Shown: positions 23,354 through 56,654 of the stretch, piece after piece
Position numbering within the stretch: the first letter of the stretch is position 1
How the letters are laid out: every line of letters starts with the position of its first letter
Assembly: GCA_021234155.1 (NCBI GenBank)
Contig: JAJEKV010000094.1
Location: 1 to 64,000 of the forward strand
DNA: 64,000 bases
Source: Isoetes taiwanensis
Lineage: Eukaryota > Streptophyta > Lycopodiopsida > Isoetales > Isoetaceae
Direction of reading: 5' to 3'
The notes under the pieces: generated by a model
What the model saw: only the letters and a program-made list of their open reading frames with translations
What the model was told of the DNA's origin: nothing
The model's database searches: none
Position numbers and translations under genes: made by a program

Positions 23354-24084
23354 GAGTCATATCCTCAGGTAATTCTTCCAAAGACTCTGGATATAGAATA
23401 CGTTTTCGGCCATGATGTATGCTAAATCTCTTCTGGCTGCCTCTCTTTCTTCTCTAGCACATTTATATCTCTCTAGCACATTTGAGTTCCATGCTACAGC
23501 CGTAGACATCTGCATTACACAAACAATCCATATGCATATGCAGACCCACGGGTCTTTCCATTTGAGACTTTGCACTCAAAGCAGTTTCAAAGAGGGCTTG
23601 AGATAACTTTTTACTTAGGCGTTTTGCATCTTTACCAGGCTCATATTTGTATAAGTCTTCTATTCTGATAATTTACATTAACCTATTTTTGTTTTCTTAT
23701 TCTCAAGTTTCTCAGTTTTGATCAAATGGTTGTACTCTTTATCTCGTCTTAGCTTCCTTTTCATTACATTCTGCAGTCTTATATATAAGGTGCAGAAAGT
23801 AGATCAACATCTGCATTAATTTTTGTATAGGTATTAATACCATTGGAACTAAGCTGTATCCTTGATTTTTATTTAAGGATTAATACAAAGATGGGGTAAA
23901 ACCATTAAAACGAAGTTGTATTCTTGTTTTTTCATCTAAGCCTCAATACAAAGGTTGGAGTTTGAAAATTAACGTATTTGTCTAGGCAAATTCATGTCTA
24001 TCATTGAGAATTTAAGTACCTTGTTAGGGTGTAAGTTAAGTTTATGTATATTTTAATGTTGTGTTGCTAAATGTGCAGTGCAAG

Positions 24085-26858: not shown

Positions 26859-27239
26859 CTAGTTTGTCTCATTAGGATTCTCATGGAAAAATATCTGCTC
26901 GACCTGACTTGGAAAAACAAAAGGTTCCTTCATTTCAGCCAATACCTTTGAAGAATCCACTTCTGGAAATCCTGATGGATGAGTCCTAATTGTCTTGCCA
27001 CGACCTCTGTATACAACCTTGAACCATCGTGCCTTCAAGACATTTACACGAAAGCTACGATAATCCAACTCAATAATATCTATTAAGATTCCCGTGTAAT
27101 TCATGTTACTCTCAAGAAGGTTGCGATCCCTATTGCTAAATTGACTTTTTTGTTCAAATTCTGAGTTGATCCCTGAATCAAATGTAACTCTACACTTATC
27201 AACACCATGGATGCGAAAATGTTGCTCATATGCCCACAT
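26859..27239 (-). pseudogene. CACTA transposase fragment, DUF4216 domain (copy B)
   Basis: The frame contains MWAYEQHFRIHGVDKCRVTF, FEQKSQF, IIELDYRSFRVNVLKARWFK and PSGFPEVDSS with EPFVFPSQVEQIFF. These align block for block with copy A at 22784-23353 but with many replacements, so they come from two distinct elements of one family. The frame continues the DUF4218 and ERYMK pieces to its right. No catalytic transposase core is seen within the window. Confidence 0.82.
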
Positions 27240-27317
27240 TGAGGAATAATATCGTGCCTAGACCAAAATAATAATACTTATGAGTAACGTGTAGCATAAA
27301 GAGAATGGAACTTAGGA

Positions 27318-27942: not shown

Positions 27943-28400
27943 TCAAAAAAACTGGTGGGAAATTCCAATGTCACAAAGCAGTATAATCACTTCCTCCTCC
28001 ACTTTTGGAATATCAGCCACGTCAATTTCTTTGGAGGAGACCCACCTTGCAAATTTACCCAATCGGAATATAATGCCCCTTATTTGTGGGGTCAAAAAGT
28101 CCCCTATCACACATGGAAGTATATGCTGCAAAGCCCATGTAATATCATCGCATACGTTGCAATATGATTTATTACAAAAAATAGAAGTACAAAAGTCAAA
28201 GCATACCTGGAGAAACTTGTGCCAATCATGCGTCTTTAATCCAGTGAGGCTACCTTTTTTTGTAAATGCCTTTCTTAAAGAAGCCCCATATCCAGTTGGT
28301 ATGTGCACCTTTGCTATCCTCTTATTTACTTCAATCTGTTGTTTCTTTCCCAAAACCCATGCACCTTGTTTCCATGTCAAAGTCTTCTTGCCTTTCTTGA
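27943..28400 (-). pseudogene. CACTA B transposase fragment, DUF4218 domain
   Basis: The minus strand encodes KVHIPTGYGASLRKAF, SLTGLKTHDWHKFLQ, then a degenerate LPCVIGDFL block and VEEEVIILLCDIGIS. This is the family's layout of 'P.GY..N', 'GLKSHDCHVLMQ', 'LP..' and the helix before 'YFPPSFFD'. The reading continues rightwards past 28380 in the same frame to the inverted-repeat boundary. Its counterpart on the right arm is just outside the window. Confidence 0.78.
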
Positions 28401-28696
28401 ATATTGCCTACTTATCAGGGTCGGTCACATTTCCAGATGCATGAATGACACCTCGTGAGCCACTAATGTTTTCCCAAAATGACTAGGCAATACCCTAAGA
28501 AATAATGAAGTGAGCCTCTCTAATGTTCTTGTTGAGTATAAGGTTCCGATTGTGGTACAAAAAATCGTTACCCCTCGAGAAAAATAGAACATGACCTAGC
28601 AAACAATGAAGTAAAGCTTTCTAATCCTAGCCATTGCACAACATTGATGTCTATTGCCTAAAACACAATATTCACACCATACACAATGGTATAGAT

Positions 28697-28795
28697 AATG
28701 TGCCAGGGCATGCAATTTTGTCTGGTAAGGGCTTGGCAATCCCGTAAGGGCGAGCCAAGGTCTGAGCTAGGCAAAATTGCCTGCCCTGGCACATT
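28697..28795. repeat. Foldback hairpin within the left arm
   Basis: AATGTGCCAGGGCATGCAAT... at the start pairs with ...GCCTGCCCTGGCACATT at the end over about 24 bp with one or two mismatches. The inner sequence (GGGCTTGGCAATCCC / GCGAGCCAAGG) is partly self-complementary. An equivalent hairpin is in the right arm at 63597-63695. Confidence 0.85.
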
Positions 28796-29403
28796 CTCTA
28801 ATGTAATGCTTTGGGGCAGCAGGTATTAGCTTTGTGCTGCTGCCCAAACATTACGAAAAAACCATTGCCCACATTATGAATAGAGTATCTTTGGTTCTAT
28901 TACATTAGATGTGGCTCAAACATGCCACTAGGCAGGCTTGAAAAGACAGGCTGTTAGCCTCCTTAATCCCCGGTTGGAATTTTATTTTCGGTTTTCAAGT
29001 CTATACAAAATTCGGCAAATACTCATTAGCTTATTTGCAAATCTGGTGGAGCATGACATACAATGGCAAATTTTCTAGATAGACGTACTAGGGATTTTGA
29101 ATCATGGCCACTAGAGTCCTAAAAATGCATCATTTATTTGTTTTAAGAATGAAATATGATATCTCTAAAATACAACCCCGAGTCTGAATACACCCATCCT
29201 AATCGCTAATCGCTTTTTCAAAAACATTAAAAAACAAAAATCAGCATTGATTCCCCAACCATTGATCTGCACAAAAAAAAATGGGGGTCGCATTGGCAAC
29301 ATATGCCCCGATCGAGGCAGCATGCCCATGTTCCAAACCGCAAAGAAAAAAAGAAGATAAGATTAGTTGCAAACGCATAAGATTAATTGCAAATGCAGCT
29401 CAT

Positions 29404-29495
29404 GATCGCAGAAGATCAGATTAGACAAGACCGCAGAAGATAAGATTAGACAAGATCGCAGAAGATAAGATTAAACAAGATCACAAAAGATTATG
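29404..29495. repeat. 25-bp tandem repeat, about 3.6 units
   Basis: Units start with GATCGCAGAAGAT at 29404, 29429, 29454 and 29479 (partial). The right arm (about 62930-62990) has one unit fewer, an arm-specific copy-number change. Confidence 0.85.
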
Positions 29496-29749
29496 ATGCA
29501 CAGAAACAGAGAGAACCAACAGAAACATAGAGAAACAGAGAACCAAGCAAAGAAGGTTGTGTAGGTTTTAAAAATATGAGATAAAAGTACAAAAATACAA
29601 GAAAACATGGAGCAAAGCCTTCAGAAAACCGGCGTCCCAAACCGGACGATTAGTGCCATATCCGTAAACTGCCGATTCTCTCGGATTTCAATAATGCGGG
29701 GGCTCCAACAATCAATCCACCGATTCCGAGTCACGATTTGGGAAACCGA

Positions 29750-31377
29750 TGCAATGGACGCTCACCGAACATATAATGACCCTCGGCCAGTATACATGCG
29801 GGGACTTTCCCTCCCATGGCAACCAACTTGCCATAAGCGGAGGCCCTCCGTCTAACTCCGGCCGTCTATAATAAGGCGGCTCAAGTGAAGGACACAGAGG
29901 GGTCATTCGCCCACGCCTTCAATGGGCTTATATGTCCAAGGCGTGAATACAAGGGTTAGCACACGGCATAAATCACATATAAATAACCACCCACGAAGGG
30001 TGGCACATCCATCCAAATACCAGCGGCAAAGAATATGCATCTAAACCTAAGAAAAACACCCCAAACCCCGGTGTTCTACCCCGTTCGGACTCAGGAGGAT
30101 AGACGGCTCGGCCTCAAGAGATCAGCGCATGCAGGTATAACTGGCGTTGGCGGGCATAGAACATCGGCTAGGGTTGTCCACTCCATCCGCCCTCCTGTGC
30201 ACACTTTGCGGATGGGTCGAGAAGTCACGCCATAAGCCGCTATAGCCTTAGGAGAGCAGAGGGCTCGAGGCATCACCTGCTGAGCCTACTCCGAGGGTTC
30301 ATGAAGCCGGGCCCGATGAGGGAGGTGGGAAGCGTCCCTCCCCGTAATCCACGGTGGTTCCATGGGTGAGCTAGAGAATACGTGCCGCATCAGCGACCCC
30401 TTGATCCGTGCAGCTTACTCACCCTAAATCTACTAGTCTGGGGATGCCCCATCGCGGGTCACACCTCGTACCCGGGGAAGTGTCGGACCATACCCGGCCC
30501 ACCTCGGCGCCTAGCTTCTTTGGTTAGGCTATTAGGCCTAGCCCGCTGTAGGAGTCTCGGGGAGCCTTTTATGTTAGGTGCAAGACCCCCACCCCACTTC
30601 ACCATGTGTTCCTTGTGCGGTGCTAAGCCGGTCCATAGCATCTATGACCCGGTGGGCTCTTGTGCCTGAGCCGCAACTAATGGGATAGTCTGGGGGGCTT
30701 TATCTAGGAGCATACTACAATAAATGGGCTCGAGGTCTCTACCCTCCGTGAATTCCCCATTTCCAAGAGCAATACTATGCAAAAACTAACAATCCATCCT
30801 TTGAGAGCAAACCCGTAATCGGAATATAAAGAGAACGAACTTTACCTTTACAATCAAGGGTTAGTTCCTACTGAGTAAAAACATAGAGAGAACGGACAAC
30901 CAACCCAACATGTGCCCTTGGTAGCTATCCTAGAATTCACAACTACACTAGCCACCTGTGTTGTTTCTACATTTGGACCCGTTATCATTGGGGATTTCCA
31001 TCTTCTCGGTCTTGGTGTTCAGCTCTGGTCACAAGGGTGGCGTCCAACTGCTCAAGGTGGCGCTCAGCTCTGGTCACAAGGGTGGCGCTCCACTGCTCAA
31101 GGTGAATTGTGGCTGATATGGGGGTGGTGATCCACCTTATTGGTCTCAATTAGTATCACCATGTTAGCCAATCGATGTTGGCCACGTGGCGCCTTCCCAA
31201 ACCATAATTGACTTAATTACCCCTTTTAAATATTAGTTCCCTAATTATAGGTTATTACCCTTAATGATTAAATTAGAGTCAACCCCCTAGGTTACCATAC
31301 CCCATGGTGGCGTATCTATACTGGGTGACGTGTCAATATATTTATACGTATACCGTATAAATACTTGGAACGTCACA
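29750..31377 (-). repeat. Element 1 3' LTR
   Basis: It is about 1628 bp. On the minus strand it opens TGTGACGTTCC; its other end, compared with the partner LTR, is decayed (TGCAATGG on the plus strand instead of TGTGATG). It contains a 45-bp direct repeat (31021-31065, repeated from 31066) shared with the other LTR. Long blocks are almost identical to the partner LTR, with differences clustered in GC-rich patches. Confidence 0.9.
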
Positions 31378-31391
31378 TTCTCCCCTCCTTA
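31378..31391 (-). other. Element 1 polypurine tract
   Basis: On the minus strand TAAGGAGGGGAGAA directly precedes the 3' LTR start TGTGACG, the position and composition of the plus-strand primer. Confidence 0.85.
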
Positions 31392-32041: not shown

Positions 32042-33486
32042 TGGTGCGACCTTGAGATTCCAGCGCATGAAGTCCGGATAGTGCTTCTCAAGGTCTGTTT
32101 CCATCACCCGCGTAGCATCCTCCACTGGCAAGTGTTTCCACTTGACCAAGTATTGCGACATCACGGTCCTTCGAAGTGCGCATATGCTCGATCAAGAAGA
32201 GCTTGGGCACTATATTCAATTGCTCTTCTGTCATTTCAAGTAGGGTGGGTGTATCCAAGATCTCACGGATCTCAGGGTGTGCTTCTTTAGAAGATTCACA
32301 TGAAAGACCTTGTGGATCTTCAAGCGGGGTGGCAAGTCGAGGCGATATGCCTGTTCCCCAACACATTCAGTGATCTTGAACAGCCCAGCCCATCTGGGTG
32401 CCAATTTCTTGCGATTACCAATCTTAAGCTTGGCTTGTTTGACTTTAATCTTAAAGTAAAACTGATTCACCCACTGGAAGACTTCGTGGGGTTACCTCAG
32501 GCTTATCGCAACACACTCTTTTGACCCATTTGCGTGCGCTAATAAGTACCCACGAACTTCTTCAACGAGAGCTTGCATTTCCAAGAGGAGTTGCTGAGAA
32601 ACCTCCACTTTGGAAACGGGGTTATGCCAAATTAATCGGGAGTAAGGCATTGATAACCATAATTTATCATGAAGGAGACATTCGGAAGACTCATTTCATC
32701 TTTGTTGTAGGCAAACTCAACTAGATAAATATAGTCGGCCCATTGGGATTGCTTACTCCACACATAACCCGTAGCATATCCTCTATAATACGATTGAGTG
32801 CGCCCCGTCGACCATCCCGTCCCGAGGATGATATCGCGTGCTCATAGCAAGCTTGGTCGGATGGTGGCAAAGAAATCTTTCGAGATAAACTTACAAATTT
32901 GGGATCCCCAGCCGGATACAATAACTTCGTGGCATTCCGGTGCAGGCTGAAGATCTCCTTTGCAAATAGGGAGCGGTATCGAAAGGTCGTATCGGGTGTG
33001 CGACATGGCAAGAAATGAGCCATTTTCGACAATTTGTCGAGCTACTACCATCAATGCATCATATCCACGGAGAGTATGCGTGGAAGGCCCACAATGAAGT
33101 CCATGGTTATCACTTCCCACTTGGCATTGGGCACATCCAACGGCTGCAACTCTCCCGGAATCCTTAATTGCTCAGCCTTAGTTTGTTGACACACTTGACA
33201 CTGCTTAATGTACCTGGCAATGTCCTTCTTCTTCGAAGGCGAAATAAGCTGGGCGGATCTTAAAGTAGGTCTTCATAAAACACGCATGTCCAGCTATAGG
33301 ACTGCGAAGCGTGTCATGGAGAATGAGCTTACGTACCCCCGAAGTCTCAGGTACACACAACTTATCCTTGTAATATAACAATCTGCCTTCTTTCTTATAT
33401 GAACGAAAAGCTTCACACTCCTTATCCGTGCGAGCTTCCTTAGCCAAACTGTCCCAAACATCACGGAACTTCGGGATCCGTGGCAA
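32042..33486 (-). pseudogene. Element 1 integrase with C-terminal chromodomain
   Basis: The order of pieces on the minus strand is: zinc-binding part with GHACFMKTYFKIRPAYF (33205-33486); DD35E core fragments with KMAHFLPCRTPDTTF (32721-33032) and MGSDNHGLHCGPS-type remnants; GPY/F-like part with KQAKLKIGNRKKLAPRWAGL (32231-32470); a linker EILDTPTLLEMTEEQ; and a chromodomain reading YLVKWKHLPVEDAT with DLEKHYPDFM (about 32050-32160, after a frameshift). Integrase inserts the cDNA; in chromoviruses the chromodomain is thought to guide it to marked chromatin. At least five frame changes break it. Its counterpart in element 2 is intact in one frame. Confidence 0.85.
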
Positions 33487-33494
33487 GGTTTGTT

Positions 33495-33758
33495 CTATTT
33501 GTTTCCCAAACTCGCGGTGAGTGTAGAAATTGCATTACAATGGGTTCGGGTTACTAAGGGATGGCGGACAATGCATCCGAAAAACCACATTGTGCTTCCA
33601 GACTTATACATAATCTCAAAGTCATACTCCTCGAAATTCCATCCATCTTCTCGACGGAGATTGAGATTTGGTGGGTGGATAAGTAACGGAGACCCGATGA
33701 TCCGTATCCAGTGGAATCTTCTACCAAGAAGGTAGTGTCTCCATATCCGGCAGAGCAC
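33495..33758 (-). pseudogene. Element 1 RNase H C-terminal part
   Basis: The frame reads RIWRHYLLGRRF, then NLRREDGWNFEEYDFEIMYK and SGSTMWFFG. This is the end of the RT-RNase H region, where 'LRRWALFLQEYDFEIVYRPGK..VADALSR' is the family pattern, with frameshift damage after EIMYK. It lies directly upstream of the integrase zinc domain. Confidence 0.7.
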
Positions 33759-34157
33759 GGATAAGCGCTAACAATTCACGATCATGGGTAGGGTATCGCT
33801 GCTTTCTGTTTCGTTCATTTCTTTGAATCATAGGCAATAACCCTCCCCCTCGCATTAGGACTCCCCAAGTAGCAATCTTATCGGCATTCGATTTGCCACT
33901 AGCTTATCCTTGTCGGGGATCGGACAGCGTGAGAGAATGGCGACGTTAAGGCATCTTTTTAAGCTGGCCGAAACTTTCTGAACCTTTGCTTTCCAATGCT
34001 CAATCCAATCCTTCACTTTCTCATGCTTTGTAAGATTAGTAAGAGGTGCTGCAATCTTTGCAAAATCCTTAACAAATTTCCGATAATATTCGGCTAGTCC
34101 TAGGAAACTTCAGACCTCGGAAACATTACTTGGAATAGGCCATTCCCTTCTACGCCT

Positions 34158-34953
34158 CTATCTTTCGGATGCACCGCCAATGCCCTCTGCTGAAATGATA
34201 TGTCCCAAATAATCCACCTTGGGAGTGGCAAAATTGCATTTAGAGAACTTGGCAAAGAGCTGATGGCGTCTTAACTTTTCTAGGGCCAACCAAAGATGTT
34301 TCTCATGCTCCTCCAAGGTCTTACTATAGATGAGAATGTCGTCAAAGAAGATAACAACAAAATCATCCAAATATTGTCGGAAAACATCATTCATTAACCG
34401 CATAAAGGTTGCGGGGGCATTAGTTAATCCAAAAGGCATAACGGTAAACTCATAATGCCCATATCTAGTGCGAAAAGCAGATTTATGGATGTCCTCCTCT
34501 TTAATCCTTATCGATGATATCGGGAGAAGATCAATCTTTGAAAAAATACTTGGCTCCTTGCAACCCGATCCATTAGATCATCGCCCTAGGCAAAGCATAG
34601 CGATTCTTGATGGTATGCTTGTTGAGTTGCCGATAATCGATACACATTCTCAAGGAGCCGTCCTTTTTCTTTACAAAAAGAATAGGAACGCCAAAGGGCG
34701 AAACACTAGGTCGAATAAAACCTAGGTTTAGTAGCTCTTGAAGTTGCTTCTTAAGCTCTGCCAACTCTGGGGGACTCATACGGTACGGGGCCTTGCTGGT
34801 AGGCTTAGTACCTGGTTCTAAAGCTATTTCACATTCTACTCCTCTGAAAGGAGGAAGCTTATGGATCTCGTCTGGGAAAAGATCGCTAAATTCGCGGAGA
34901 ATACTGGCAATCCTCCGGGGCAAGGTATTGATTACTTGGTTTTTTTTTAGCAT
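34158..34953 (-). pseudogene. Element 1 reverse transcriptase
   Basis: Two frames carry RT blocks. The first (34573-34953) has [57 protein letters not shown]-type sequence and [18 protein letters not shown]. The second (34158-34439) has [29 protein letters not shown] (the catalytic FxDD form) and [10 protein letters not shown]. Between them (34440-34570) the frame is shifted. All of the fingers and palm landmarks are present, so the break is limited. Confidence 0.88.
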
Positions 34954-35570
34954 CGACTCAATGGAAGCAAGGCTGATAACGCAGAGGAGCTTTTGCTGCG
35001 TATAGCTTTATCTAACGTCCGGATGGACATAGACCGCATGATAGGGTTGAATGGTTCACCTTTTATAGTTACGCGGGCTCCATTAGCTGCGTTGAAGGTA
35101 ACTTCTCTCTTCTCGCAGTCTATGTTGGCTTTTGCAGATGCCAAGAATTCCATACCAACAATGAGGTCGTATTTGCCAATATCCATTAACCTAAGCACCC
35201 ATAGCAAGAATTGCACCGGCAACCGCATCTTAAGATTGATCGGCGACCACGGTATGTCTAACCTTCACACATGTTGGGCTAAAGTGACAGGCTCCCGATC
35301 GCGGACCTTTGGGGTGTCCGGTTGTAGGGACCTGGGCCATTCTAGGAGAAGCAAAATTATGTGTACTCCCCGGTATCCATAAGAATTCACGAAAGGCTAC
35401 TTGTCTACTTGGCCTATGGTGGAAATAACCCATTAAAGCCAGGCTGACTTTCAGCATTGCCGGTTTCTATAGCTGCAAGGATATGAGATGCACCATGAAT
35501 GTACTCGGGAGCGTCCTCATCAGCAGGTAGTGTTGACTCAAGATCGTCCCAACCGAGGTCGGCCATGGCC
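34947..35570 (-). pseudogene. Element 1 aspartic protease and gag C-terminus
   Basis: Reading from the right on the minus strand, 35570-35460 encodes a gag-end segment reading ADLGWDDLE with ILAAIETGN, parallel to element 2. Next comes the protease active site: STHNFASPRMA is preceded by a GGGG run that shifts the frame out of DTG (about 35370). Then DIGKYDLIVGMEFLASAKA (34947-35228) gives the flap and hydrophobic-glycine motifs. The protease cleaves Gag-Pol. One extra G explains the loss of the DTG frame. Confidence 0.8.
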
Positions 35571-37490: not shown

Positions 37491-37791
37491 TCATCTAAAA
37501 TCCCCTCGGATCCGTCGTGCCAGGTGAAGGTCCTTGGGCATAATAGTGACCCTCTTTGCGTGTATGGCGCAAAGGTTGGCGTCGCTCAAAAGTTCAATAA
37601 GATAAGCCTCGGCGACCTCACTGTAAGGCGAGGACCGCCAAAAGCTTGAAACCTTAGGTCGGTTTTTGAAGTCCCAGGCGATCTCCCCGTACAAGCGGTT
37701 GGAAGGGAAGCCCGCTGGATCAATGGCTCATGAAGTCTTCGATACTTACGATCTCGAAGAGCTACCGTCTTGGTCGAAAACCTATGGGCTT
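37491..37791 (-). pseudogene. Histone H3 fold carried by chromovirus element 1
   Basis: Histone H3 is a core nucleosome protein. On the minus strand, starting at 37791, the landmarks come in canonical order and spacing: KPIGFRP (H3 KPHRFRPG), TVALR then RKY (alpha-N), [15 protein letters not shown] (LPFQRLVREIAQDFK), KTDLRFQA in a neighbouring frame, then [27 protein letters not shown] and HLARRIRG before the stop at 37491. The total of about 100 codons equals the canonical length of this part. It resembles canonical H3 and not CENH3, which has different residues in the last helix. At least three single-base frame changes lie between the blocks. The upstream basic region (37792-38140) may be a replaced tail; no ARTK start is seen in this copy. 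Confidence 0.93.
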
Positions 37792-38360
37792 AGCGGCTTG
37801 AGGGTCGGCCTTTAAGCGACGGAATGGATTTCCGCTTTGTTGAAGGATGCTTTGTCCATTTGGGCGATGTGCTCCCGATCCTCGAGCCCGATGTCTTCTT
37901 GGCAATTGTTGCATCCTGCTGCAGTCGGGTCTTATAGTGCACCCCACTCTTCACGGGTTTGGTTTTCTTTCTCTTCAATGTTCGGTTACCCCGCTCCCAC
38001 TGCTGCCTCTGTGTGGGGTTTCCCCGTGGGTCTGCCGATTGGTTCACGTCGCCAGGCATGTCCGGGTTTTCCTGGGGGTTAACGTTCTGGGCCGCACCTA
38101 GGTCCTGCTGGTCAACATCAAGGTTCTGCTGCTGATCCACCTGCTGGTGATCTTGTTGATCCCCCTGCTGATTCTCGCTCTGCTGGCTATGAAGGTCCTC
38201 CCCTTCCTTTTGGAGCCGCTCTCGCTCTTAGATATCCTCGGCCTCTTTATCCAGGGCGCATTTGTTCGCGGGCAATCTCGATATGGTATCGGTCCAGTGC
38301 GTGCCGCATGTCTTCTTGGATGGATTCCAGGTGGCGTTGGCTAAACCTTGGCGGAACATT
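37792..38360 (-). pseudogene. Element 1 region upstream of the H3 fold (basic, Q/N-rich)
   Basis: The minus-strand frame 37790-38140 begins MDQQQNLDVDQQDLGAAQN, is rich in Q, N, D and P, then becomes basic (RTLKRKKTKPVKSG...) as it approaches the H3 fold. It may be the N-terminal extension fused to the histone, comparable to the long charged insert of element 2. I do not recognise a domain. Confidence 0.45.
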
Positions 38361-38759
38361 TTAAAAAATGAAGCTGTTAAGGCCTTCATTCCAAGAAAAG
38401 GTAGGAAGATTAAAGTATTCTTGGTATGTGAGTATACAACCCTTTCCCAAGTAATAGAAGCGGTCCATCCTTATGTCTGGTGGAGCACTGGCTATCTGCT
38501 GCAAGTCTTCCACTCTCGCAAGATGCATGATCCTCTGGGCTTCATTCCGAATAAGCTCGGCAGGGTCGTCATCTGGTCCTGGTGAGGGGTAAAACTTAAC
38601 CACAGCCCATGCACGGTCCGGCTGCTCCACGAGAGTGTAGGCCTGATCGGCTTCATTCAACTTGATAAGAAAGCGCTCGTTGAAATGGAAGATAGGGTAG
38701 GGGACTCTTCGGCCCTCGACAAAGTGCTTGACGAAAAGACCAAGAATGGTATCTATCAT
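38361..38759 (-). CDS. Unknown 132-codon ORF upstream of H3 in element 1
   Basis: This open frame reads IDTILGLFVKHFVEGRRVPY, then a KLNEADQAYTLVEQPDRAW stretch and YPSPGPDDDPAELIRNEAQ, and ends near SWNEGLNSFIF. The composition is that of a folded, soluble protein, and it is unbroken over its length despite the damaged neighbourhood. It lies between the 5' leader and the H3 region on the element's coding strand, so it may be the first part of the same pre-gag ORF. I do not recognise a family and did not find a counterpart in element 2. The start shown is tentative. Confidence 0.5.
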   Translation of the reverse strand: MIDTILGLFVKHFVEGRRVPYPIFHFNERFLIKLNEADQAYTLVEQPDRAWAVVKFYPSPGPDDDPAELIRNEAQRIMHLARVEDLQQIASAPPDIRMDRFYYLGKGCILTYQEYFNLPTFSWNEGLNSFIF

Positions 38760-39540
38760 AGGGTCTTCGTCGGCAAGATGCTCGACTAGCTGACAAATAG
38801 TCGGAATACGCCAACTTCTTCAAGTCCACGGTTAGCTTTGAAGCTTGAGCGGCATGATTATACTAGCAAAGAACAGCAAGGGAGGAGGAAGGTGAGGCGC
38901 TCATGCAAGGATGGACGGCACTAAAGAGTAAGTAAGGGCGCTGAGGTGTAGGGCAGATGCAAGGGAGGCGTGGAGGTCAGCTATGGCGAGTTTGGAGCTT
39001 AAGTCGGCTATGGCTTTAAAGGGTGCTCGAGAGAAAGCCTGCACGCCCAAAAATATGGTTCAAAATTCAAATTTTAACTTTTAACTTTTTATTAAAATTT
39101 TCAAAAAATATTAATTTTTTATAAAAATTTTAAACGGCGCCATATAAAAATACAAAAACCGTATAGGTATTCTGCGTTGCTTATCGGCTTTTAATTTTTC
39201 AAAAGAAACACCTCTGATGCAACAGCGCCCTTTTCATTTTTTAGTGACCTGTTGTCTTTTTTTGACCCGGGGAGGCGTGCCCCTAGGGTATTTGGGAGGT
39301 GCCCAATCCATTGGAGCCGTTTTAGCCTTCATCAGGAGCTACCTACAAAAGTTATAGCTCTTCGAAACTTGGGTCTTCCAGTTGCCCCAGACTTCTTAAG
39401 GACTTATAGTCTATTACATTAACCTAGCACCAAACCAAACATCAAAGACTTAAACAATCACTCTTGCTTAAACCCTCTCTCCTAACTACCGAACTAGCGA
39501 GTTAGGGTTTAGTCGGTGCTATGATTTCAGTACTTAGAAA
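38760..39540. other. Element 1 5' leader
   Basis: This sequence lies between the PBS and the first clear ORF on the minus strand, with AT-rich tracts (39061-39140) and no recognisable coding content. Confidence 0.5.
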
Positions 39541-39558
39541 TCACGGCTCTGACTACCA
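39541..39558 (-). other. Element 1 primer-binding site
   Basis: On the minus strand TGGTAGTCAGAGCCGTGA begins two bases after the 5' LTR end. It differs by one inserted base from TGGTATCAGAGC, the usual initiator-Met tRNA primer site of plant gypsy elements. Confidence 0.85.
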
Positions 39559-39560
39559 GC

Positions 39561-41199
39561 TGTGATGCTCCACGAACATATCGACCCTCGGTAGGTATAC
39601 ATCACGGGGACTTTCCTCCCATGGCAACCAACTTGCCATAGCGTGGCCATCTGTCTAACTCGGGCCGTCTATAATAAGGCGCTCAAGTGAAGGAACCGAG
39701 GGGTCATTCGCCCACGCCTTCAATGAAGCCTACGATGGAAGTGAGCGTGAATACAAGGGTTAGCACACGGCATAAATCACATATAAATAACCACCAATGA
39801 AGGGTGGCACATCCATCCAAATACCAGCGGCAAAGAATATGCATCTAAACCTAGGAAAACACCCCAAACCCGGGTTCTACCCCGATTCGGACTCGTGAGG
39901 ATAGGCCCGATCTTCGGCCTCAAGAGATCAATGCATGCAGGTATAACCACGGCGTTGGTCGGCATAGAACATCGGCTAGGGTTGTCCACTCCATCCGCCC
40001 CTCGCGTACTAATCGTCGCGGATGGGTCGAATCACGCCTATGGCTTCTCGCTATAGCCTTAGGAGATGCGAGGCTTTGAGGCATCACCTGCCGAGCCTAC
40101 TCCGGGGGTTCATGAAGCCCGTCCGATGAGGCGTGTCGTGGAAGCGTCCCCTTCGAATCCTGATGGTTCCATGGGTGAGCTAGAATACGTCTCGCATCAG
40201 CGACCCAGCATCCATGATCCCGACTTACTCACCCTAAATCTACTCAAAGTACCCCGGGATGCCCTATGCGGGTCACACCTCTGTACCCAGGAAGTGTCAG
40301 ACCCATACCCGGCCCGGCTCGCGCCTAGCTCGCTGGCCGGCTATTAGGCCTAGCCCAATCGTAGGAGTCTCGGGGAGCCTTTTATGTTAGTGCAAGACCC
40401 CACCCCACTTCACTGCTGTGTTCCTTTGGGGTGCTAAGCGGAGTCCATAGCATCTATGACCCGGTGGGCTCTTGTGCACAGGCCGCAACTAATGGGATAG
40501 TACAGGGCCTTATCTAGGAGCATACTACAATAAATGGGCTCAGAGGTCTCTACCCTCCCGTGAATTCCCCATTTCCAAGAGCAATACTATGCAAAAAACT
40601 AACAATCCCTTTGAGAGCAAACCCAAAATCAGAATATAAAGAGAACGAACTTACCTTTACAATCAAGGGTTAGTTCCTACGAGTAAAAACACAGACAACC
40701 AACCCAACATGTGTCCAACAGGGGCGCTATCCTAGAATTCACAACTACACTAGCCACCCACCTGTGTTTCTGCTGGACCCGTTATCATTGGGGATTTCCA
40801 TCTTCTCGGTCTTGGTGTTCAGCTCTGGTCACAAGGGTGGCGTCCAACTGCTCAAGGTGGCGCTCAGCTCTGGTCACAAGGGTGGCGCTCCACTGCTCAA
40901 GGTGAATTGTGGCTGATATGGGGGTGGTGATCCACCTTATTGGTCTCAATTAGTATCACCATGTTAGCCAATCGACGTTGGCCACGTGGCGCCTTCCCAA
41001 ACCATAATTGACTTAATTACCCCTTTTAAATATTAGTTCCCTAATTATAGGTTATTATCCTTAATAATTAAATTAGCATAGCTAATTTAATCCCTTTTAT
41101 GTCAACCCCCTAGGTTACCATACCCATGGTGGCGTATCTATACTGGGTGACGTGTCAATATATTTATACGTATACCGTATAAATACTTGGAACGTCACA
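39561..41199 (-). repeat. Element 1 5' LTR
   Basis: It is about 1639 bp with intact ends: TGTGACGTTCC...GGAGCATCACA on the minus strand. It has the same 45-bp internal repeat as the 3' LTR (about 40821-40904). About 26 bp near 41080 are absent from the partner LTR. It is related to the element 2 LTR at 59343-60947. Confidence 0.93.
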
Positions 41200-42669
41200 G
41201 ATTCTTCAACCCTGGCTGCCCAAACCACTAGCTATGAAATCGCAACTGAATCTGTTCACCCAATCTCATCGCACCCAATTTGATCTCACCGTGCCTCTTC
41301 TGTTGGAGCTTCTATGCACTGCAAAGTAATGACAATGGCTGTGCGCCCAACGACGCTGCATCAAGCCGTAGGCCTCCAACAAATGCTCAGCCACAGCATT
41401 CATCGGTCCAGCAGAAGACATGTAATCCAGCGCTGCTGCTCTCAGGAGGCGTCCCCTCCTCATCTAGACAACTGTGCATGCCCTGCATGCCCTGCCCTGA
41501 TCTAACACTCCTAGCAATTCTCTTCAACATAGAAACACTGTGGAACATACCTATGTTGGCCTCCACACATCCTTGGCTACTCGACATGGTGCTTAGACAG
41601 AATAACAAACATGCAAGAAGTCAAGATGCCAGTCTCTTTCGGCCCAGCAGCATCGCCAGGCGTCACCAAATCCTCCCACTCTGGAGCTGGTCTTCCTGGC
41701 ATCGCCCATTCCATGCCATCAGTTTAGGCACATCTTCTTGCTATTTCCGGCCCCTCTCATCCCGACGTCCAGGTTCGTCCAGAACCCAATCGCACGGCCA
41801 ACAAAATTAACACCAGAAAAAATTTCCCCCCGCCCGACCACTAGTTTCATTGGGAAACCTACTGGGATCATCATTGATACCCCATGACAAAAAGGGGCAT
41901 AAGATGACGTGGTACGATGCTATTTAGAGTAAAAACCACAAATTTTGTCAATGGTGAAATTTAACAAAAGGAAAACTACTAAAATAGGCATGATATAATC
42001 GTATATTGATCAAGGGCGGAGATGAGCGGCTGAGATTGTGATCCAAGGCTAGCGATCCTATTGGTTCTAAGTGGGACCAAGATTTCATCTGATGTGTTTG
42101 TTTTCAGCCCTTCTATCTCCCCGCCGATCCCTCCCCTCTCGCTGCTTCTGATGATCTCCGCTTCTCCTCTTCTGATGATCATCGGAACCCATCATTCTAG
42201 TTTTGTTCATTGCTCTGTTCATCGGAATCGGAAGCGGCATGCATCGTTTGTTACTTTTTTTTACATTTTAAGTTTTTACTTGTTTACTAGATCATCTTCG
42301 ATGATCTCCGCTTCGATGATCTTCGATGATCTAAAAACTCGATCTGCGGTTGCAAAGTGCGGGGAGTTCTTTGGTTGCTCATCTTCGGGGCCGGGCCAAA
42401 AAGCGAGGATCTGTTCTTGCCCTCGATTTCGTCTGTTGGATTCATTACCATAAGCAAGGCTTTACCACAGTTCCTCCACAAAAAAGGCTCCATGCAAATC
42501 GTTTTCCGGGAACACAAGGGGCGAGGTTAGTCAAATAATAAAGAGATTTTTGATTCCCGGGGCTTTTATGTTTCTGGTGAAGGAATTATAGACACAAAGA
42601 CATGAATTTATTTGCTTCATCTTGTCTCTACAAAAAAGGTACAAGAATGGATTTGTTTTCCATGATCCA
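41200..42669. repeat. Large inverted repeat, left arm (inner part)
   Basis: This is the reverse complement of 61160-62650 at about 95-97% by eye. It ends exactly where a Helitron terminus begins (42670). A 176-codon frame (41280-41810, plus) is open in both arms, but the antisense strand also carries shared frames and no domain is recognised, so I do not call a gene. Short GATGATCT-type repeats occur at about 42160-42330. Confidence 0.95.
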
Positions 42670-43396: not shown

Positions 43397-43799
43397 CAAC
43401 GATAGATTGTTTGCAAATTGGTGAAATGCATTAGTAGTCATGTATAAACAATGCAATACACCTTGTAAACACAACGTTGATGTACAAAGTAGTCATTTTA
43501 ATATTCAAAATAATTGCACCAACAACAACAAAGCCACATTATATGACCTAACAGAAACTTTCAAGCTATTGCTGCACAAACCAAGTTCCATAGCCACCAA
43601 CTTATATAATTGTCTCTGCAACTGCTTTTTGTACTACATGTTATAGAAACGTACAAACCATTTCAATGCTGTTAAATTGATGTAGTAGCATTGAGATGCT
43701 TCGAGAAAGTCTATGGACAATAGACATACATGCAAGGTACTCCCTACTGGTGGTCATGGTTCTTCAACACTTAGGTGTCAAGCAGTAAATCTCAGCAAA

Positions 43800-44558
43800 A
43801 TGTATTATGATTAACGAACCAAATTACAATGTATGAGCTTGTAGCGAATAGCAACATTTTTCCACATTTTAAAGTCCAACATGAAAAAGCAACAATTTTT
43901 GAAGCATAAGTTACCCTTACCTACGTTTCTCTAAGAACCCTAAGCTTGCTATATAGAAAACATTTTTTGTTACCAATTTGATTCCCATAATAGGTGCAGG
44001 AAGACGGGGATGCAAATACTTACTGCAACTTGATTTGTTGAAGCTCCCAAAACGTGGATGCAATGAATAGCCATATATTGACATCCTCTAGCATGTGTTG
44101 CAATGCATCAAAAATAGACATTAGGCCTTGATGGTTCTGTGCATATGGGCATGATTCCTCCTACTAAACAAATTGTATCATGAATAACAAACCAAGTTAC
44201 AATGTATAAGCTTGCATTTTATGTAGTACCAATTAACAACATTCTCCCCAACTATTCTAAGGTCCAGCATAAAAAGCAATACTTTTTGAAACAAAACTGA
44301 CCCGTTCCTCCGTTTCTTTAAGAACCCTAAGCTTGTTATAGAAAAGGTTATCTGCTACTAAGTTGATTCCCATAATAGGTGCAAGAAGAAGAAGGGGATG
44401 CAGATAGAAGAAGAAGATGCAGATACTTACTGAAAATACTGATTTGCTGCAGCTTCTAAAAACATGGATGCAATGAGTAGCCATATATTGACATGCTCTA
44501 GCATGTGTTGCAGTGCATCAATAATAGACATTAAGCCTTGGTGGTCTTATATACAACC
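43800..44558. repeat. Diverged tandem duplication, period about 390 bp
   Basis: Copy 1 (about 43800-44160) and copy 2 (about 44168-44558) share AACCAA[A/G]TTACAATGTAT, AAGAACCCTAAGCTTG, TTGATTCCCATAATAGGTGC, TAGCCATATATTGACAT and CTAGCATGTGTTGCA. Copy 2 has an AGAAGAAGA expansion. No coding function is seen. Confidence 0.85.
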
Positions 44559-45632: not shown

Positions 45633-46703
45633 ATGGCCAGAACCAAATCCACTGCCAGAGTTTGTGGCCCTTACGCTGAACAAATTCACTTAGCCGCTCG
45701 AGCAGCAGCTGCCCGCCCACCCCCTCGAGAAGAGGAAGTAGTTGAAGAAGAGGAGAACTTAAACAAGTGAGGGAAGAAGAGGAAGAATCAAGTGAAGAAC
45801 GGGGAGGTCGGAAGAAGAGCGGGCTAAGAAGAAGGATCCACTAGACCCACAACGTGGGAAGTACCGGCCAAAAAGGTATGAGACCCATAAGCAAGAAAGG
45901 CAAAGGAAAAAGTGTCGAATGGGCCTCGAGAAAGGAGGGAAAGAAAGAAAGGAAAGGGAGAAGGAGTTGAGAAGGCAAGAGAGGAGGACGAAGAGGAGGC
46001 AGGATAGGCCTAGGGGGACAATTAATATCGAAGAACCCCCTAGGGATGAAGAACCAACAGAAGAACAAGAGGAGGACGCTGAAGAAGAACAGGAGGAAGA
46101 CCCGGTAATTGAGAGATCAGGAGATGAAGCCGAACCCTCCAACCCCAATGCCCCTCCACCATATCCAATGTGGCCCAGGGCAGAGAAGAGCAAAAAGAAA
46201 CAAAAGCCGGGCGAAAGGGCATTCAAGTTGAGTCATGACGCCCAATTTGAAAGAAAGAAGGCGGCATATAAAATTTACTTTCGCCGATGGTACCTATACA
46301 ATGAATGGTATTGTAAACAGAATTTTCCAAGGACGGTAAAGGGGGGTAGACCCAAGAAAAATCAGCCGAAACCACCCCCACCATACCCCAGAGAACCCAA
46401 GAGGAAGCAACATGGCCCTAACTTCGGCCTCAGGTGTGTTTAGGGGAAATCGGCACTTTCAACATTGCACAAATCTTCTTATCATAAGGCACCCTTGACG
46501 GTTGCTAAGGGGAGGTGTTACTGAGGAATTCAAGGCAGTTATCGAAGTTCGCCTTTGATGGTTCGTGCCTTGCAGGAAGCTTCTGAGGCAGAGCTAGTAC
46601 AATTATTTGAAGAAGGTAACCTCCGTGCCATTCATGCCAAGAGGGTTACAGTAATGCCTAAAGATATTCACTTGGCAAGAAGAATTAGAGGGGCAAAGTT
46701 TTA
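45633..46703 (+). pseudogene. Histone-H3-like protein with long charged insert, in chromovirus element 2
   Basis: The ATG at 45633 gives MARTKSTARV, matching the H3 tail MARTKQTARK except at residues 5 and 9, followed by QIHLAARAAAARP where H3 has QLATKAARKSAP. K4 is kept; positions 9, 14, 18, 23 and 27 carry no lysine. A first stop is at 45768. An acidic and arginine-rich segment of about 230 codons follows in another frame (to 46443). Then the H3 fold appears: [32 protein letters not shown], and, back in the first frame, [32 protein letters not shown] and HLARRIRG before TAG at 46701. Order matches alpha-N to alpha-3. Three frames are used, so it is broken or contains sequence errors. Tail and final helix lie in the same frame. 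The insert is unlike canonical H3. Confidence 0.9.
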
Positions 46704-46779
46704 GAGGGTATAAAAATTGCCTAAATTTTTTTGTAAAATTTGACTCCAGGGTGTTAAAGGGAAATTATAATGATGTTTA
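46704..46779. other. AT-rich spacer between H3 and gag in element 2
   Basis: Begins with GGGTATAAAAATTG shortly after the H3 stop and is strongly AT-rich. It occupies the same position as the longer spacer of element 1. A TATAAAA word (46709-46715) is present, but nothing shows it acts as a promoter. Confidence 0.5.
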
Positions 46780-47556
46780 ATGCTTATTAAAAATTATAAT
46801 ATTATTTTGGAAAAGTCAACCCGAGGAAAAAAAAAAGTCCACTCGGGTCACACCCAAGAATTTGGCAACTCCTATGGAATGAAGGATAAGGACATAGGAA
46901 AGGTAGCAACAGCAAATTTGAATGGTCCAGCCAGAATATGGTGGAAGGGATATGCAAAATCTAATAGACTGAAAAGAAACAATTGTAAGTTCAAAACTTT
47001 CAGTAAAGCATTTCGCAAGCACTATGTACCTCGATCACATACAAGCAGGCAGATTCAACAATTTTATAGGTTGGATCAAGGAAACTTAACCGTAGCCAAA
47101 TATACGGAAGAGTTCATGAGGCTACGATTAAATGTGCCAACAATAACAGAAAGGCAAGCCGTAGATGGTTACATTGAAGGACTAAACCCCAACATCAAAA
47201 GACTTGTGCGGGCCATAAACCCAAAAGGTTGGTTGGGAAGTTGAGGATAAAGCCTTAAGTTTGGAAGAAACTCCACAAACACTGGGCCAAAAGCAGGCAA
47301 CTATTCAAAGGACAAGTCAATAGCTCCATACACTCCAAGGCAGCAGGGAAATCAACCTGCTAACCAACAGTTTCAAGGGAAGAATGAAAGGAAAGGACCA
47401 TACAGAAATCAGGCAGCTCAAGGGTCTTCATCTGGCAGGTCAATCAAAAGCTTCCTAGACAGTATTCCAAAAGAAAAGAGGGATGAATGCATCAAGAAAC
47501 AACTCTGTTTCAGATGTTTCCAACCGGGCCACAGAACACATACATGTCCTTTCGTC
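46780..47556 (+). pseudogene. Element 2 gag (N-terminus missing) with zinc knuckle
   Basis: Frame 46780-47244 has the gag core: LNGPARIWWKGYAK, FKTFSKAFRKHYVP, FYRLDQGNLTVAKYTEEF and GYIEGLNPNIKRLVRAI. A frame change follows near 47240, and LCFRCFQPGHRTHTC (about 47508-47552, CX2CX4HX4C) is a nucleic-acid-binding zinc knuckle in frame with the protease. A gag start is not visible; the sequence just upstream is poly-A-rich. Gag forms the particle and packages RNA. Confidence 0.85.
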
Positions 47557-48504
47557 ATGCAGGCAGCCTTAGCAGAGCTAGATGGATGGGAATCACCTAC
47601 TGAACAAGATGAAGATGATGATGATGAGGAAGCCCAAGATTACATAGATGGTGAGTGTAAGATTTGTGCAGCTATTGAGACTGATAATGTTGCAAGTCAG
47701 TCCACGGTCATCTCAGCTGATGCTATAATAGATGATAAACCGTATGTAATTCTAATAGACACGGGTAGTTCACACAATTTTGCATCTCCTAGACTGGCAG
47801 CATTATTGAAGTCAAAGACCATGAAATCTAAACCCAGACCAGTCAGCATGGCAAATGGGGCAATTCGACATACAAAGGGAAGAAGAGTTAATTTCGACGT
47901 CGGATTGACCGGAATTAAGTTCACCATGGGAGCTGAGGTAATGGATATTGGCAAATATGACTTGATAGTTGGAATGGAATTCCTCAAACCAGCTAAGGCA
48001 ATCATTGACTGCGACAATAAAGAGATAGCAATCACAGCACCAGATGGCAAACGAATAGTGGTCAGAGGTAAGGAAATTCCTTCAGTAATGCAGTGTATAA
48101 CTTTAAGCCAGTTGAATAAATGCAATTTAAAGAAGGAGATCGAATATATCCTTAGGCTAGAAGCAATTCAACCTGATAGTGAGAAAATAACACAGGAAGA
48201 AAGCATAGAAAAATTGCCTAAGCCTATTGCTAAAATCATAAGAGAATTCTATGATGTTTTTCCGGATGATATCCGAGAGCTACCACCCTATAGAGGTGTG
48301 GAATGTGAGGTTACTCTAGCCCCAGATGCTAAGCCTACTAGCAAGGCTCCTTACAGGATGAGCACACCGGAACTGGGAGAGCTCAAGAAACAGTTGAAGG
48401 AGTTGTTGGAAATTGGTTTTATAAGACCAAGTGTATCACCCTTTGGGGCACCTATTCTCTTCGTGAAGAAGAAAGATGGAAGTCTAAGAATGTGTATAGA
48501 TTAA
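47557..48504 (+). CDS. Element 2 protease and start of reverse transcriptase
   Basis: This 315-codon frame continues from the zinc knuckle. An acidic linker leads to the aspartic protease with VILIDTGSSHNFASPRLA (active site, about residues 65-82) and MDIGKYDLIVGMEFL (flap and second loop). It then enters RT with [45 protein letters not shown] and [14 protein letters not shown]. The TAA after MCID falls where family members continue YRQLNK, so the stop is a mutation or sequence error inside RT and not a natural end. The true polyprotein start is upstream. Confidence 0.88.
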   Translation: MQAALAELDGWESPTEQDEDDDDEEAQDYIDGECKICAAIETDNVASQSTVISADAIIDDKPYVILIDTGSSHNFASPRLAALLKSKTMKSKPRPVSMANGAIRHTKGRRVNFDVGLTGIKFTMGAEVMDIGKYDLIVGMEFLKPAKAIIDCDNKEIAITAPDGKRIVVRGKEIPSVMQCITLSQLNKCNLKKEIEYILRLEAIQPDSEKITQEESIEKLPKPIAKIIREFYDVFPDDIRELPPYRGVECEVTLAPDAKPTSKAPYRMSTPELGELKKQLKELLEIGFIRPSVSPFGAPILFVKKKDGSLRMCID

Positions 48505-49592
48505 ATGACTAAATAAACAAACGGTAAAGAATAAATACGCATTACCAAGGGCAGATGATCTAATGGATCAACTTCAAGGGGCAAAGATATTCTCCAAAAT
48601 AGACTTAAGGTCAGGGTACCACCAAATAAGAATAAAAGAAGAAGATGTTCATAAAACAGCTTTCAGAACACGCTATGGACATTGTGAATTTACAGTTATG
48701 CCATTTGGCCTATCAAATGCACCAGCAACGTTCATGAGGTTGATGAATGATATTTTTAGAGAGTTCTTGGATGATTTTGTAATAGTGTTCTTCGACGACA
48801 TCCTCATTTATAGTAAGTCAATCGAAGAGCATGATCACCACCTGAGAAAAGCATTACAGAAGCTAAGAAGGCATAAGCTATTTGCCAAATTTTCCAAGTG
48901 TCACTTTGCCACCCCCAAAGTTGATTACTTGGGGCATATTGTATCGCGAGAAGGCATTACCTTGAGATCCAGCAAAAATAGAAGCCATCATAGATTGGCC
49001 AGCACCAAGAAACATCCCTGAAGTAAGAAGTTTCCTGGGTCTTGCAGGATACTACAGAAAATTTGTAAAGGACTTTGCTAAGTGGGCAACTCCTTTGACA
49101 GACTTCACAAAGAAACAGAAGGTAAAGAACTGGATGGACAATTGGATACAAGAAGTACAAGTTTCTTTTGATAAGCTCAAAAGAAGCCTTGACAACAGCT
49201 CAGTTCTAACCTTACGACCCGAAAAAGATAAACTTGTAGCTAAGCCCGATGCAAGCATGATTGCCAAAGTGGGGTACTTTATGCGGGGAAGGAAAGGTAG
49301 TTGCATATGATTCAAAAAAAAGATGAATGAAGCGAGAACAACGATATCCAGGCTCATGATCAAGAACTATTGGCGTAGTGAGAGCACTACGCATTTGGAG
49401 ACATTACTTGTTAGGAAAGAAGTTCCAATTAGACCTGAGATCATCGAGTTTGCAATACATATTCACACAACCACTTGTAAATTTGAGACAAAGAAGGTGG
49501 ATGGAGTTTTTAGAAGAATATGACTTTGATATAGTCTATAAGCGAGGCAAATTGAATGTAGTTGCTGATGCTCTCTCTAAAGTAGACCAATA
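48505..49592 (+). pseudogene. Element 2 RT (second half) and RNase H
   Basis: Frame 48563-49021 has [65 protein letters not shown] (catalytic FxDD) and [10 protein letters not shown]. After a shift near 48965, connection and RNase H pieces follow: [17 protein letters not shown]-type sequence near 49030, a degraded primer-grip area, and FLEEYDFDIVYKRGKLN then VADALSKV (49500-49590). About three frame changes occur. The polymerase palm is intact by eye. Confidence 0.85.
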
Positions 49593-49672
49593 GTCACAAG
49601 AACACCTTGCAATGCCATATCAACTTTGTCAAGTGAATTCGGCAGAAAATTGAGGAGGCAATACCCTCTAGT

Positions 49673-51163
49673 GTGGAGTTCCAACAGGTTTGGGCAAGCC
49701 TTTGCAAGGGCCTTAAAGGACAAACAAGGAAAGGGAACTTTAAGAATTATAAGAAGGAAGGCAAGCTTCTTTACCATAAGGACAAATTGTGTGTCCCGAA
49801 ACATGGGGGAGTGAGAAAATTGATTCTCAACGATACTCACAATAGCTTCGATTGCGAGGTCATGCGGGGCTTTATGAAAACTTACTTCAAGATAAGAAGT
49901 AGTTACTTCTGGCCAGGTATGAAGAAGGACATTGCCAATTATATTCGGCAATGCCAATTATGTCAACAAACCAAGGCCGAACAACTTCGTATTCCTGGAG
50001 CCCTAGAACCATTAGCAGTTCCAGATGCCAAATGGGAAATAGTGAGTATGGATTTCATCACGGGCCTTCCAAGAACAGCAAGGGGGCATGACGCGCTCAT
50101 GGTAGTGGTCGATAAACTTTCAAAGATGGCACATTTCTTGCCATGTAGAACAACAGACACTGCCCTAGATACAGCCTTGCTCTTCACTAAAGAAATTTTT
50201 AGACTCCATGGCATGCCTAGGGGAATAATATCGGATAGAGATCCGAAATTTATAAGTGCATTTTGGAAGGACTTCTTTGGAACCATTGGCACAAAGCTTT
50301 GTATGAGTACAGCTTATCATCCTCAAACAGATGGTCAAACAGAAAGAACAAACAGAATTTTGGAAGATATGTTGAGACATTACGTGTGGAACAAACAGAC
50401 GAAATGGGAGGACTACATATACTTGGTAGAATTTGCATACAATAGTACCAAGCAAGAATCATCACAGATGTCCCCGTTCATGATTAACTATGGATACCAA
50501 TGTCTCACACCTGACACGTGGCATAATCCGGTGTCAAAAGTTGAAGTTTCTCAACAAATGCTAGAAGATATGCAAGAGCTAGTGCAAGAAGTTCGAGAAT
50601 ATTTGATAGCAGCTAGAAGCCGTCAAAAGAGCTTAGCAGATAAGCATAGAACAGTGAGAGAATTTCAAGTTGGAGATAGCGTATGGCTAAAGATCAAAGT
50701 TAAGCAAGCCAAGCTTAGAATTGGAAATTGCAAGAAATTGGCACCAAGATGGGCGGGACCATTTAAAATTATTGAGAGAGTTGGAAATCAATCCTACAGA
50801 TTAGACTTACCCGCTCATCTAAAGGTTCATAAAGTCTTCCACGTTAGTCTGCTTAAGAGGCATACTCCAAAACCGGAAGAAATTTTGGAGACTCCAACTT
50901 TATTGGAAATGACAGAGGAACATGTTGAAATTGTTCCTGAAACCATCCTTGACAAAGCACTCAAGAAAACACGAAGATCGGAATTTCTTCAGTACTTAGT
51001 CAAATGGAAGCATGTGCCAGTAGAAGACGCAACTTGGGTATTGAAACGAGATTTAGAAAGACAATACCCAGAATTTATGAACCAATTCGACGGCCAAGTC
51101 ATCTCCGAAATGGCCAACATCGAATATATAGGTCTGCCATTGTTAAAATCTGTGATAGATTAA
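49673..51163 (+). CDS. Element 2 integrase with chromodomain, open over 496 codons
   Basis: The order is: zinc-binding region ending CQLCQQTK (residues about 60-103); DDE core with SMDFITGLP, ISDRDPKF and DGQTERTN supplying the three acidic residues; the GPY/F-type module LGNCKKLAP-like to RWAGPFKI and HKVFHVSLLKRH; and a chromodomain with YLVKWKHVPVEDATWV and DLERQYPEF (about residues 430-465). The upstream His-His part reads HNSFDCEVMRGF where element 1 has IAGHACF, so the second zinc-ligand histidine is lost by compensating indels. Otherwise all catalytic residues are present. The chromodomain keeps the W of the usual methyl-lysine cage region. It sits about 700 bp before the Helitron insertion. 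Confidence 0.9.
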   Translation: MEFQQVWASLCKGLKGQTRKGNFKNYKKEGKLLYHKDKLCVPKHGGVRKLILNDTHNSFDCEVMRGFMKTYFKIRSSYFWPGMKKDIANYIRQCQLCQQTKAEQLRIPGALEPLAVPDAKWEIVSMDFITGLPRTARGHDALMVVVDKLSKMAHFLPCRTTDTALDTALLFTKEIFRLHGMPRGIISDRDPKFISAFWKDFFGTIGTKLCMSTAYHPQTDGQTERTNRILEDMLRHYVWNKQTKWEDYIYLVEFAYNSTKQESSQMSPFMINYGYQCLTPDTWHNPVSKVEVSQQMLEDMQELVQEVREYLIAARSRQKSLADKHRTVREFQVGDSVWLKIKVKQAKLRIGNCKKLAPRWAGPFKIIERVGNQSYRLDLPAHLKVHKVFHVSLLKRHTPKPEEILETPTLLEMTEEHVEIVPETILDKALKKTRRSEFLQYLVKWKHVPVEDATWVLKRDLERQYPEFMNQFDGQVISEMANIEYIGLPLLKSVID

Positions 51164-56648: not shown

Positions 56649-56654
56649 TCTAGG

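Follow-up and report, generated by a model that had tools for sequence, protein, structure and literature searches.

A chromovirus carrying a broken histone H3 sequence

The window analysed here is the whole 64,000-nucleotide stretch of Isoetes taiwanensis contig JAJEKV010000094.1. Its minus strand contains a chromovirus (element 1) bounded by a 5′ LTR at 39564-41199 and a 3′ LTR at 29757-31377, which pair with each other at 86.4%. The 3′ LTR starts with TG behind an adjoining polypurine stretch, AAGGAGGGGAGAA (31378-31390, minus strand), which we take to be the polypurine tract from established knowledge of LTR elements. Past the 5′ LTR, inspection of the sequence by eye revealed the primer-binding-site-like TGGTAGTCAGAGCC (39545-39558, minus strand), presumably resembling the initiator tRNA-Met site; it was not listed by a scan for TGGTATCAGAGC allowing at most two mismatches. 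The ends of element 1 are well defined because its flanks recur in inverted orientation, joined without the element, at 61160-64000 (minus strand). Matches of 92% link 28392-29750 to 64000-62661 and 41197-42669 to 62666-61160, and the junction sequences place the empty site near 62661-62666. Together these regions make up a large inverted duplication (roughly 2.8 kb, 92% identical), one arm of which is split by element 1 while the other retains the empty site. Only 2-3 bases at the ends of the element can be read as repeated.

The LTR pair differs by 173 substitutions over 1580 aligned bases and by 38 indel events (ratio 0.22), compared to indel:substitution counts of 9:76 and 12:101 (both 0.12) for the two flanking duplications. 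Element 1 is probably simply old, with about 11% between its LTRs and some excess of indels. The LTR differences are unevenly distributed, 30974-31377 and 40774-41199 being almost identical and the remainder far more diverged, which may reflect gene conversion or uneven sequence quality.

The replication genes of element 1 survive as pieces between 35.5 and 32.07 kb, in the order protease, reverse transcriptase, RNase H, integrase and chromodomain, 3′ of the histone sequence described below. The protease pieces (35007-35521, minus strand) were recovered by tblastn with a related chromovirus of the window, element 2, as were the integrase pieces ending in a chromodomain (32066-33504, minus strand, 38-48%, broken frames). 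Four pieces with broken frames at 33894-34950 (minus strand) match the reverse transcriptase and RNase H of element 2 with 58-79% identity. Pfam analyses supported the reverse transcriptase (RVT_1, E 6.6e-24), the end of the integrase (SH3_Tf2-1, E 2.1e-9) and the chromodomain (Chromo, E 1.3e-4, under the curated cut-off). No gag profile was detected between the histone sequence and the protease in three frames at E 1, and the sole Pfam match in this interval (E 0.2) is a chance hit to an unrelated family.

Upstream of these genes, at 37491-37903 on the minus strand, lies a histone H3 domain comprising a weak tail part and a core, delineated by tblastn, Pfam, comparison with solved H3 chains and frame-aware alignment, and ending in a terminal stop at 37493-37491. 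A tblastn search of the window with canonical plant H3 matched 37,706-37,500 (minus strand, 59% over 69 residues, E 2e-19, 75 bits) and 37,900-37,643 (minus strand, E 1e-6); the best H3 scores in 20 trinucleotide-shuffled windows ranged from 18.9 to 23.5 bits. Profile search of the three-frame translation, which the first-pass annotation had proposed as a check, returned a significant match to the Pfam Histone family from one frame alone (E 5.8e-15). Comparison with solved histone H3 chains gave an E value of 1e-17, and each of the 60 PDB matches listed was to an H3 chain, so that the sequence specifies an H3-type fold in particular. Frame-aware alignment with the H3 core of P0123, a relative presented below, revealed 73 identical residues out of 108 and five frame changes, with a score of 265 compared to 25-38 for ten shuffled cores. 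No stop falls at aligned residues; the one stop codon present belongs to a tail insertion outside the alignment. Because the five frame changes are accompanied by no stop at aligned residues, assembly error was considered as a source of the broken frame. No MARTK tip was found in element 1, either by eye in three frames or among the best tip matches, and the tail, which is frame-shifted and weakly aligned, lacks K9 and reads KRKSIP near K27. The segment 37,903-37,491 is thus a broken yet unmistakable histone H3 inside a chromovirus with both LTRs. The first-pass annotation had listed eight H3 landmarks in canonical order at 37491-37791 (minus strand); seven are exact, but they are spread across three frames, and the eighth, LPxxRL, is exact in no frame, its nearest counterparts being LPFQPLV and FPSNRL. 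Its statement that the H3 was kept as an open reading frame does not apply to this copy, which has five frame changes and one stop.

The H3 of element 1 is the end of a longer protein consisting of a domain of ~170 residues, a linker and the H3. The extra domain (38253-38819, minus strand) is 33% identical to P0123 over 171 residues (E 4e-26) and is open from 38361 to 38819 (152 codons), followed by one stop; homology to P0123 spans 38,756-38,253 (minus strand), with zero frame changes across 162 aligned residues. The linker was assigned to 37904-38252 (minus strand) by its position between the aligned parts. The domain matched no Pfam family (E 0.1) and its AlphaFold models were too poor (mean pLDDT of 42.8 and 46.7), so that any role attributed to it is a guess. 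A second copy of the domain, suspected by eye downstream of the H3, was rejected since its scores of 45 and 30 fall inside those of the shuffled controls (35-45 and 26-40; six each). An exact canonical H3 length, as first claimed, holds for the core but not for the gene, which is longer and has the extra domain in front; what had been taken for a plain canonical H3 is instead a core that terminates a domain-linker-H3 protein. Likewise, the H3 had been placed between leader and gag, and it does lie upstream of pol, but the gag of element 1 was not recognised. The central proposal, that a chromovirus carries a host-type H3 ahead of its replication genes, is supported.

A second H3-bearing chromovirus and two open relatives

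Element 2 is a plus-strand chromovirus related to element 1 (79% over 124 residues of the reverse transcriptase). At 45633-45770 (plus strand) it encodes an H3 tail tip, MARTKSTAR..., which is open for 45 codons and then meets a stop. This tip at 45,633 is the best H3 tip match of the window in all six frames (score of 38, next best 25), and none of 200 shuffled tips reached its score (maximum 34). A tblastn search with H3 tail residues 1-30 gave 47% (E 1.1), and in this weak alignment R2, K4 and R8 are kept while K9, K14, K18, K23 and K27 are absent. The tip is separated from the core by a charged insert (45796-46443, plus strand), open for 215 codons in a frame that differs from that of the tip. 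The insert had no Pfam match, and the best stretch that it shares with the P0123 domain covers just 21 residues, with a score of 39 that has no shuffled control. The H3 core (46436-46704, plus strand; Pfam Histone, E 1.6e-15; tblastn, E 7.5e-17) is identical to the P0123 core at 44 of 85 residues, with one frame change and one stop, and ends ~70 bases ahead of the gag frame. The gag (46774-47244, plus strand) is open from stop to stop (Pfam Retrotrans_gag, E 9.9e-18) and is followed by a protease, reverse transcriptase and RNase H region (47251-49310, plus strand; Pfam RVP_2 and RVT_1) and by an integrase with a chromodomain (49637-51163, plus strand; Pfam Integrase_H2C2, rve, SH3_Tf2-1, and Chromo with E 6.3e-10). 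The segments of both elements that we take to be RNase H were assigned by position and not by a Pfam match. The Ty3-type order protease-reverse transcriptase-RNase H-integrase is present in both elements, in pieces in element 1.

No LTR pair was found for element 2 in the window. Upstream of it, at 43796-44545, roughly 370 bases are directly repeated in diverged form (76%), possibly as part of an old element 2 leader or LTR. Downstream of its integrase, 52040-56654 on the minus strand is occupied by a Helitron with an open frame of 903 codons (Helitron_like_N, E 7.8e-62) and weak PIF1-type helicase pieces that fall below the cut-off.

When 38,819-37,494 was translated in a single frame, with X in place of stops, and used as a protein query, it retrieved P0123, a protein of 373 residues that is open throughout and originates from an ENA contig of 2953 bases. 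The other matches among the best 120 of 2073 resembled ordinary H3s, judging by their names and by the part of the query that they covered (16% in most cases), P0121 being the only one whose sequence was inspected. In the first protein search, against 7997 candidates of similar length, the eight inspected among the best 120 were ordinary or rearranged H3s. P0123 begins with an H3 tip, MARTKSAAS, followed by the extra domain, a basic linker and the H3 core, so that the domain lies between the tip and the core. A search with residues 1-240 of P0123 against 3641 candidates, all of comparable length and sharing 5-residue words with the query, returned only two proteins, P0123 itself and P0241. The latter, from a contig of 1386 bases, covers the end of the extra domain, the linker and the H3, and matches P0123 at 83% over 223 residues. 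In keeping with protein-level constraint, the two proteins diverge at 27 of 126 positions of the domain end and linker but at only 10 of 97 in the core. The domain-linker-H3 order is common to element 1 and P0123, and P0241 shares it from the domain end onward. Relatives were detected neither in viral contigs with four queries nor, for P0123, in the genome contigs searched. We infer that P0123 and P0241 may also be part of retrotransposons.

P0123 aligns to plant H3 without gaps, and its core keeps 84 of the 96 residues at positions 38-133. It retains C110, H113, A114, R116, D123 and L126 and carries Q at D77; C110, H113, R116, D123 and L126 are, as we understand it, H3-H3 contact residues. 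K23, K36, K37, K56, K64, K115 and K122 are kept, as is K4 in the tip, and K79 is replaced by R; in the ungapped alignment, K9, K14, K18 and K27 correspond to T, V, A and A, respectively. Positions 86-90 read LFGML; in plant H3 this stretch, presumably read by chaperones, is SSAVA or SHAVL. L90 is presumably as in H3.3 and F41 as in H3.1. Of the tail residues K4, K9, K14, K27 and K36 of canonical H3, P0123 retains only K4 and K36, and of those from K4 to K27 element 2 retains only K4. As judged from these alignments, P0123 is an H3-derived protein and not a canonical H3. K9 is absent from P0123, element 1 and element 2 as aligned, and loss of K27 is not universal.

Probable origin and inheritance of the H3 gene

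To place these sequences, a maximum-likelihood tree was built from 46 H3 rows: 40 H3s, which were the first listed of 130-150 residues from the first protein search, two plant H3s and the four H3s under study. Element 1, P0123 and P0241 form one clade (96/82) whose nearest neighbour is plant H3.3 (94/80). The H3 of element 2 is a long branch outside this clade, and 0% of the 200 bootstrap trees united the four sequences. The bootstrap values had not yet stabilised, and the row of element 1 was likewise marked as long. The tree supports one capture for three of the four H3s, those of element 1, P0123 and P0241. For the H3 of element 2 we infer the same origin, with a second, independent capture as a possible alternative: its H3 is off the clade and its insert is unlike the P0123 domain.

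Centromeric H3s (CENH3/CENP-A) have a diverged core and a lengthened loop 1. A centromeric identity was rejected for P0123, whose core aligns ungapped with plant H3 and groups beside H3.3 in a tree that contained no plant CENH3. Compared to plant H3.3, P0123 is without K9, has K27 replaced and carries an extra domain past the tip.

In an unbroken stretch of 40 codons, the two elements exhibit 13, 4 and 26 differences at first, second and third positions, respectively, a codon-level pattern that is one of protein-level constraint. Since host H3 also evolves under constraint, this pattern alone does not separate constraint within the element from constraint that preceded the capture. The H3 is likely to be an inherited part of the element lineage, a one-off insertion being improbable because the domain-linker-H3 arrangement recurs in P0123 and P0241 and because element 2 has an H3 ahead of its gag. 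A host histone resembling plant H3.3 is the likely source of the gene, which the element lineage would have inherited after its capture.

Alternatively, the domain-H3 fusion could belong in the first place to the host, as an uncommon variant of H3 represented by P0123 and P0241, which element 1 took up as passenger cargo of no use to it. Both proteins being open while the copy in element 1 is broken is compatible with such a history. Against it, a second, diverged element carries an H3 directly before its gag, with the tip apart from the core, and the 3641 length- and word-matched candidates included no named protein of a host that contains the extra domain. We consider a host-gene origin of this kind unlikely.

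A possible role in resistance to silencing

Plants silence retrotransposons largely via marks on histone H3. Because the element H3s lack K9, we propose that the product of a captured and inherited H3 gene would be built into nucleosomes and make them resistant to silencing, a reading to which we give about an even chance of being right. The RNA of the element would give rise to an H3 variant whose core is nearly canonical, and this core, with its contacts C110, H113, R116, D123 and L126, could allow host chaperones to load the variant. We would expect it to pair with H4 and to enter nucleosomes. Its tail could bear marks of active chromatin at K4 and, in P0123, at K36, and, for want of K9, nucleosomes containing the variant would escape K9 methylation, the mark by which plant elements are silenced. 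Recruitment of the variant to the DNA or RNA of the element might be the task of the extra domain. In its full form, in which an LTR lineage would make its own nucleosome variant from a captured H3.3, a targeting domain and a tail without K9 while its integrase chromodomain reads host H3, the proposal is tentative and rather doubtful. Against such a mechanism, both H3 copies of the window are broken, element 1 is without a recognised MARTK tip, and its KRKSIP near K27, in a weakly aligned and frame-shifted tail, indicates that K27 was not lost everywhere.

The inherited H3 could instead act as a packaging or tethering protein that would compact element DNA in the particle or pre-integration complex, in the way that the histones of giant viruses compact viral DNA, or tie it to host chromatin. 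The nearly complete H3 core of P0123, its basic linker and the highly charged insert of element 2 agree with such a function, but the ARTK tip, needless for packaging, is kept in P0123 and element 2, and PF00125 matched only H3 pieces, and no other histone, in the Pfam scans, whose ORFs and pieces represent part of the window frames. Packaging is in our estimation an improbable role. A decoy appears rather improbable as well: an over-made H3 variant would absorb H3 chaperones or K4/K36-type enzymes and disturb host silencing in trans, as the kept ARTK tip and the altered 86-90 stretch (LFGML in P0123) might suggest, but conservation of the core extends well beyond what a tail decoy would need. 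Finally, chance or a one-off processed H3 pseudogene landing in element 1 after its insertion is extremely improbable in spite of the broken state of that copy, as scores far exceed those of shuffled sequences, a second element has an H3, and P0123 and P0241 repeat the succession of extra domain and H3.

If resistance to silencing through an H3 without K9 is correct, an element-encoded H3 devoid of the silencing-mark residue would be a direct counter-move in the conflict between host and element, and would provide a natural experiment on the requirements of the H3 tail. The broader idea that mobile elements may carry their own altered histone code is testable.

The arrangement of gag, protease, reverse transcriptase, RNase H, integrase and C-terminal chromodomain that is common to chromoviruses is shared by element 2 and, in pieces and with an unrecognised gag, by element 1; what distinguishes the elements described here is an added upstream gene for an H3-containing protein. 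In the accessible portions of two chromovirus papers, an additional ORF of unknown function is mentioned and histones are presented as targets of the chromodomain and not as a gene of the element (PMC2864245, PMC3350952); the chromodomains of chromoviruses were reported there to read histone marks (PMC3350952). A parallel is found in orchids, where, according to the portion of the report available, Ty3/Gypsy elements acquired an m6A RNA demethylase domain (PMC9289625). As proposed here, a host gene was taken up and kept through later diversification, but the captured gene codes for an enzyme rather than a histone (PMC9289625). The same report, as far as available, counts 15 non-canonical domains across 121 angiosperm genomes, and the nine named in its text include no histone (PMC9289625). 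Histones encoded by non-cellular genomes are otherwise described, in the excerpts available, for giant viruses such as Medusavirus and Melbournevirus, which code for all four core histones or for doublets whereas a single H3 is found here, and for the insect polydnavirus CpBV, which carries a histone H4 (PMC10208167), whereas the H3 considered here belongs to a retrotransposon and has additional sequence separating its tip from its core. No retrotransposon-borne core histone was found in the open-access literature searched, subscription papers being largely outside its scope; as far as this literature goes, no earlier description of a retrotransposon with a core histone exists, and the H3 reported here would be the first.

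Other coding sequences of the window are a host-type gene for GPI2, a phosphatidylinositol N-acetylglucosaminyltransferase subunit, at 15600-16250 (E 2.1e-44, open for 216 codons), and two diverged pieces with DUF4216, mainly a plant domain that, like the H3.3 neighbourhood in the tree, makes a plant host likely, on the minus strand at 22784-23356 (E 1.8e-5) and 26859-27257 (E 6.2e-6), both below the cut-off, which are possibly remains of CACTA-type transposons.
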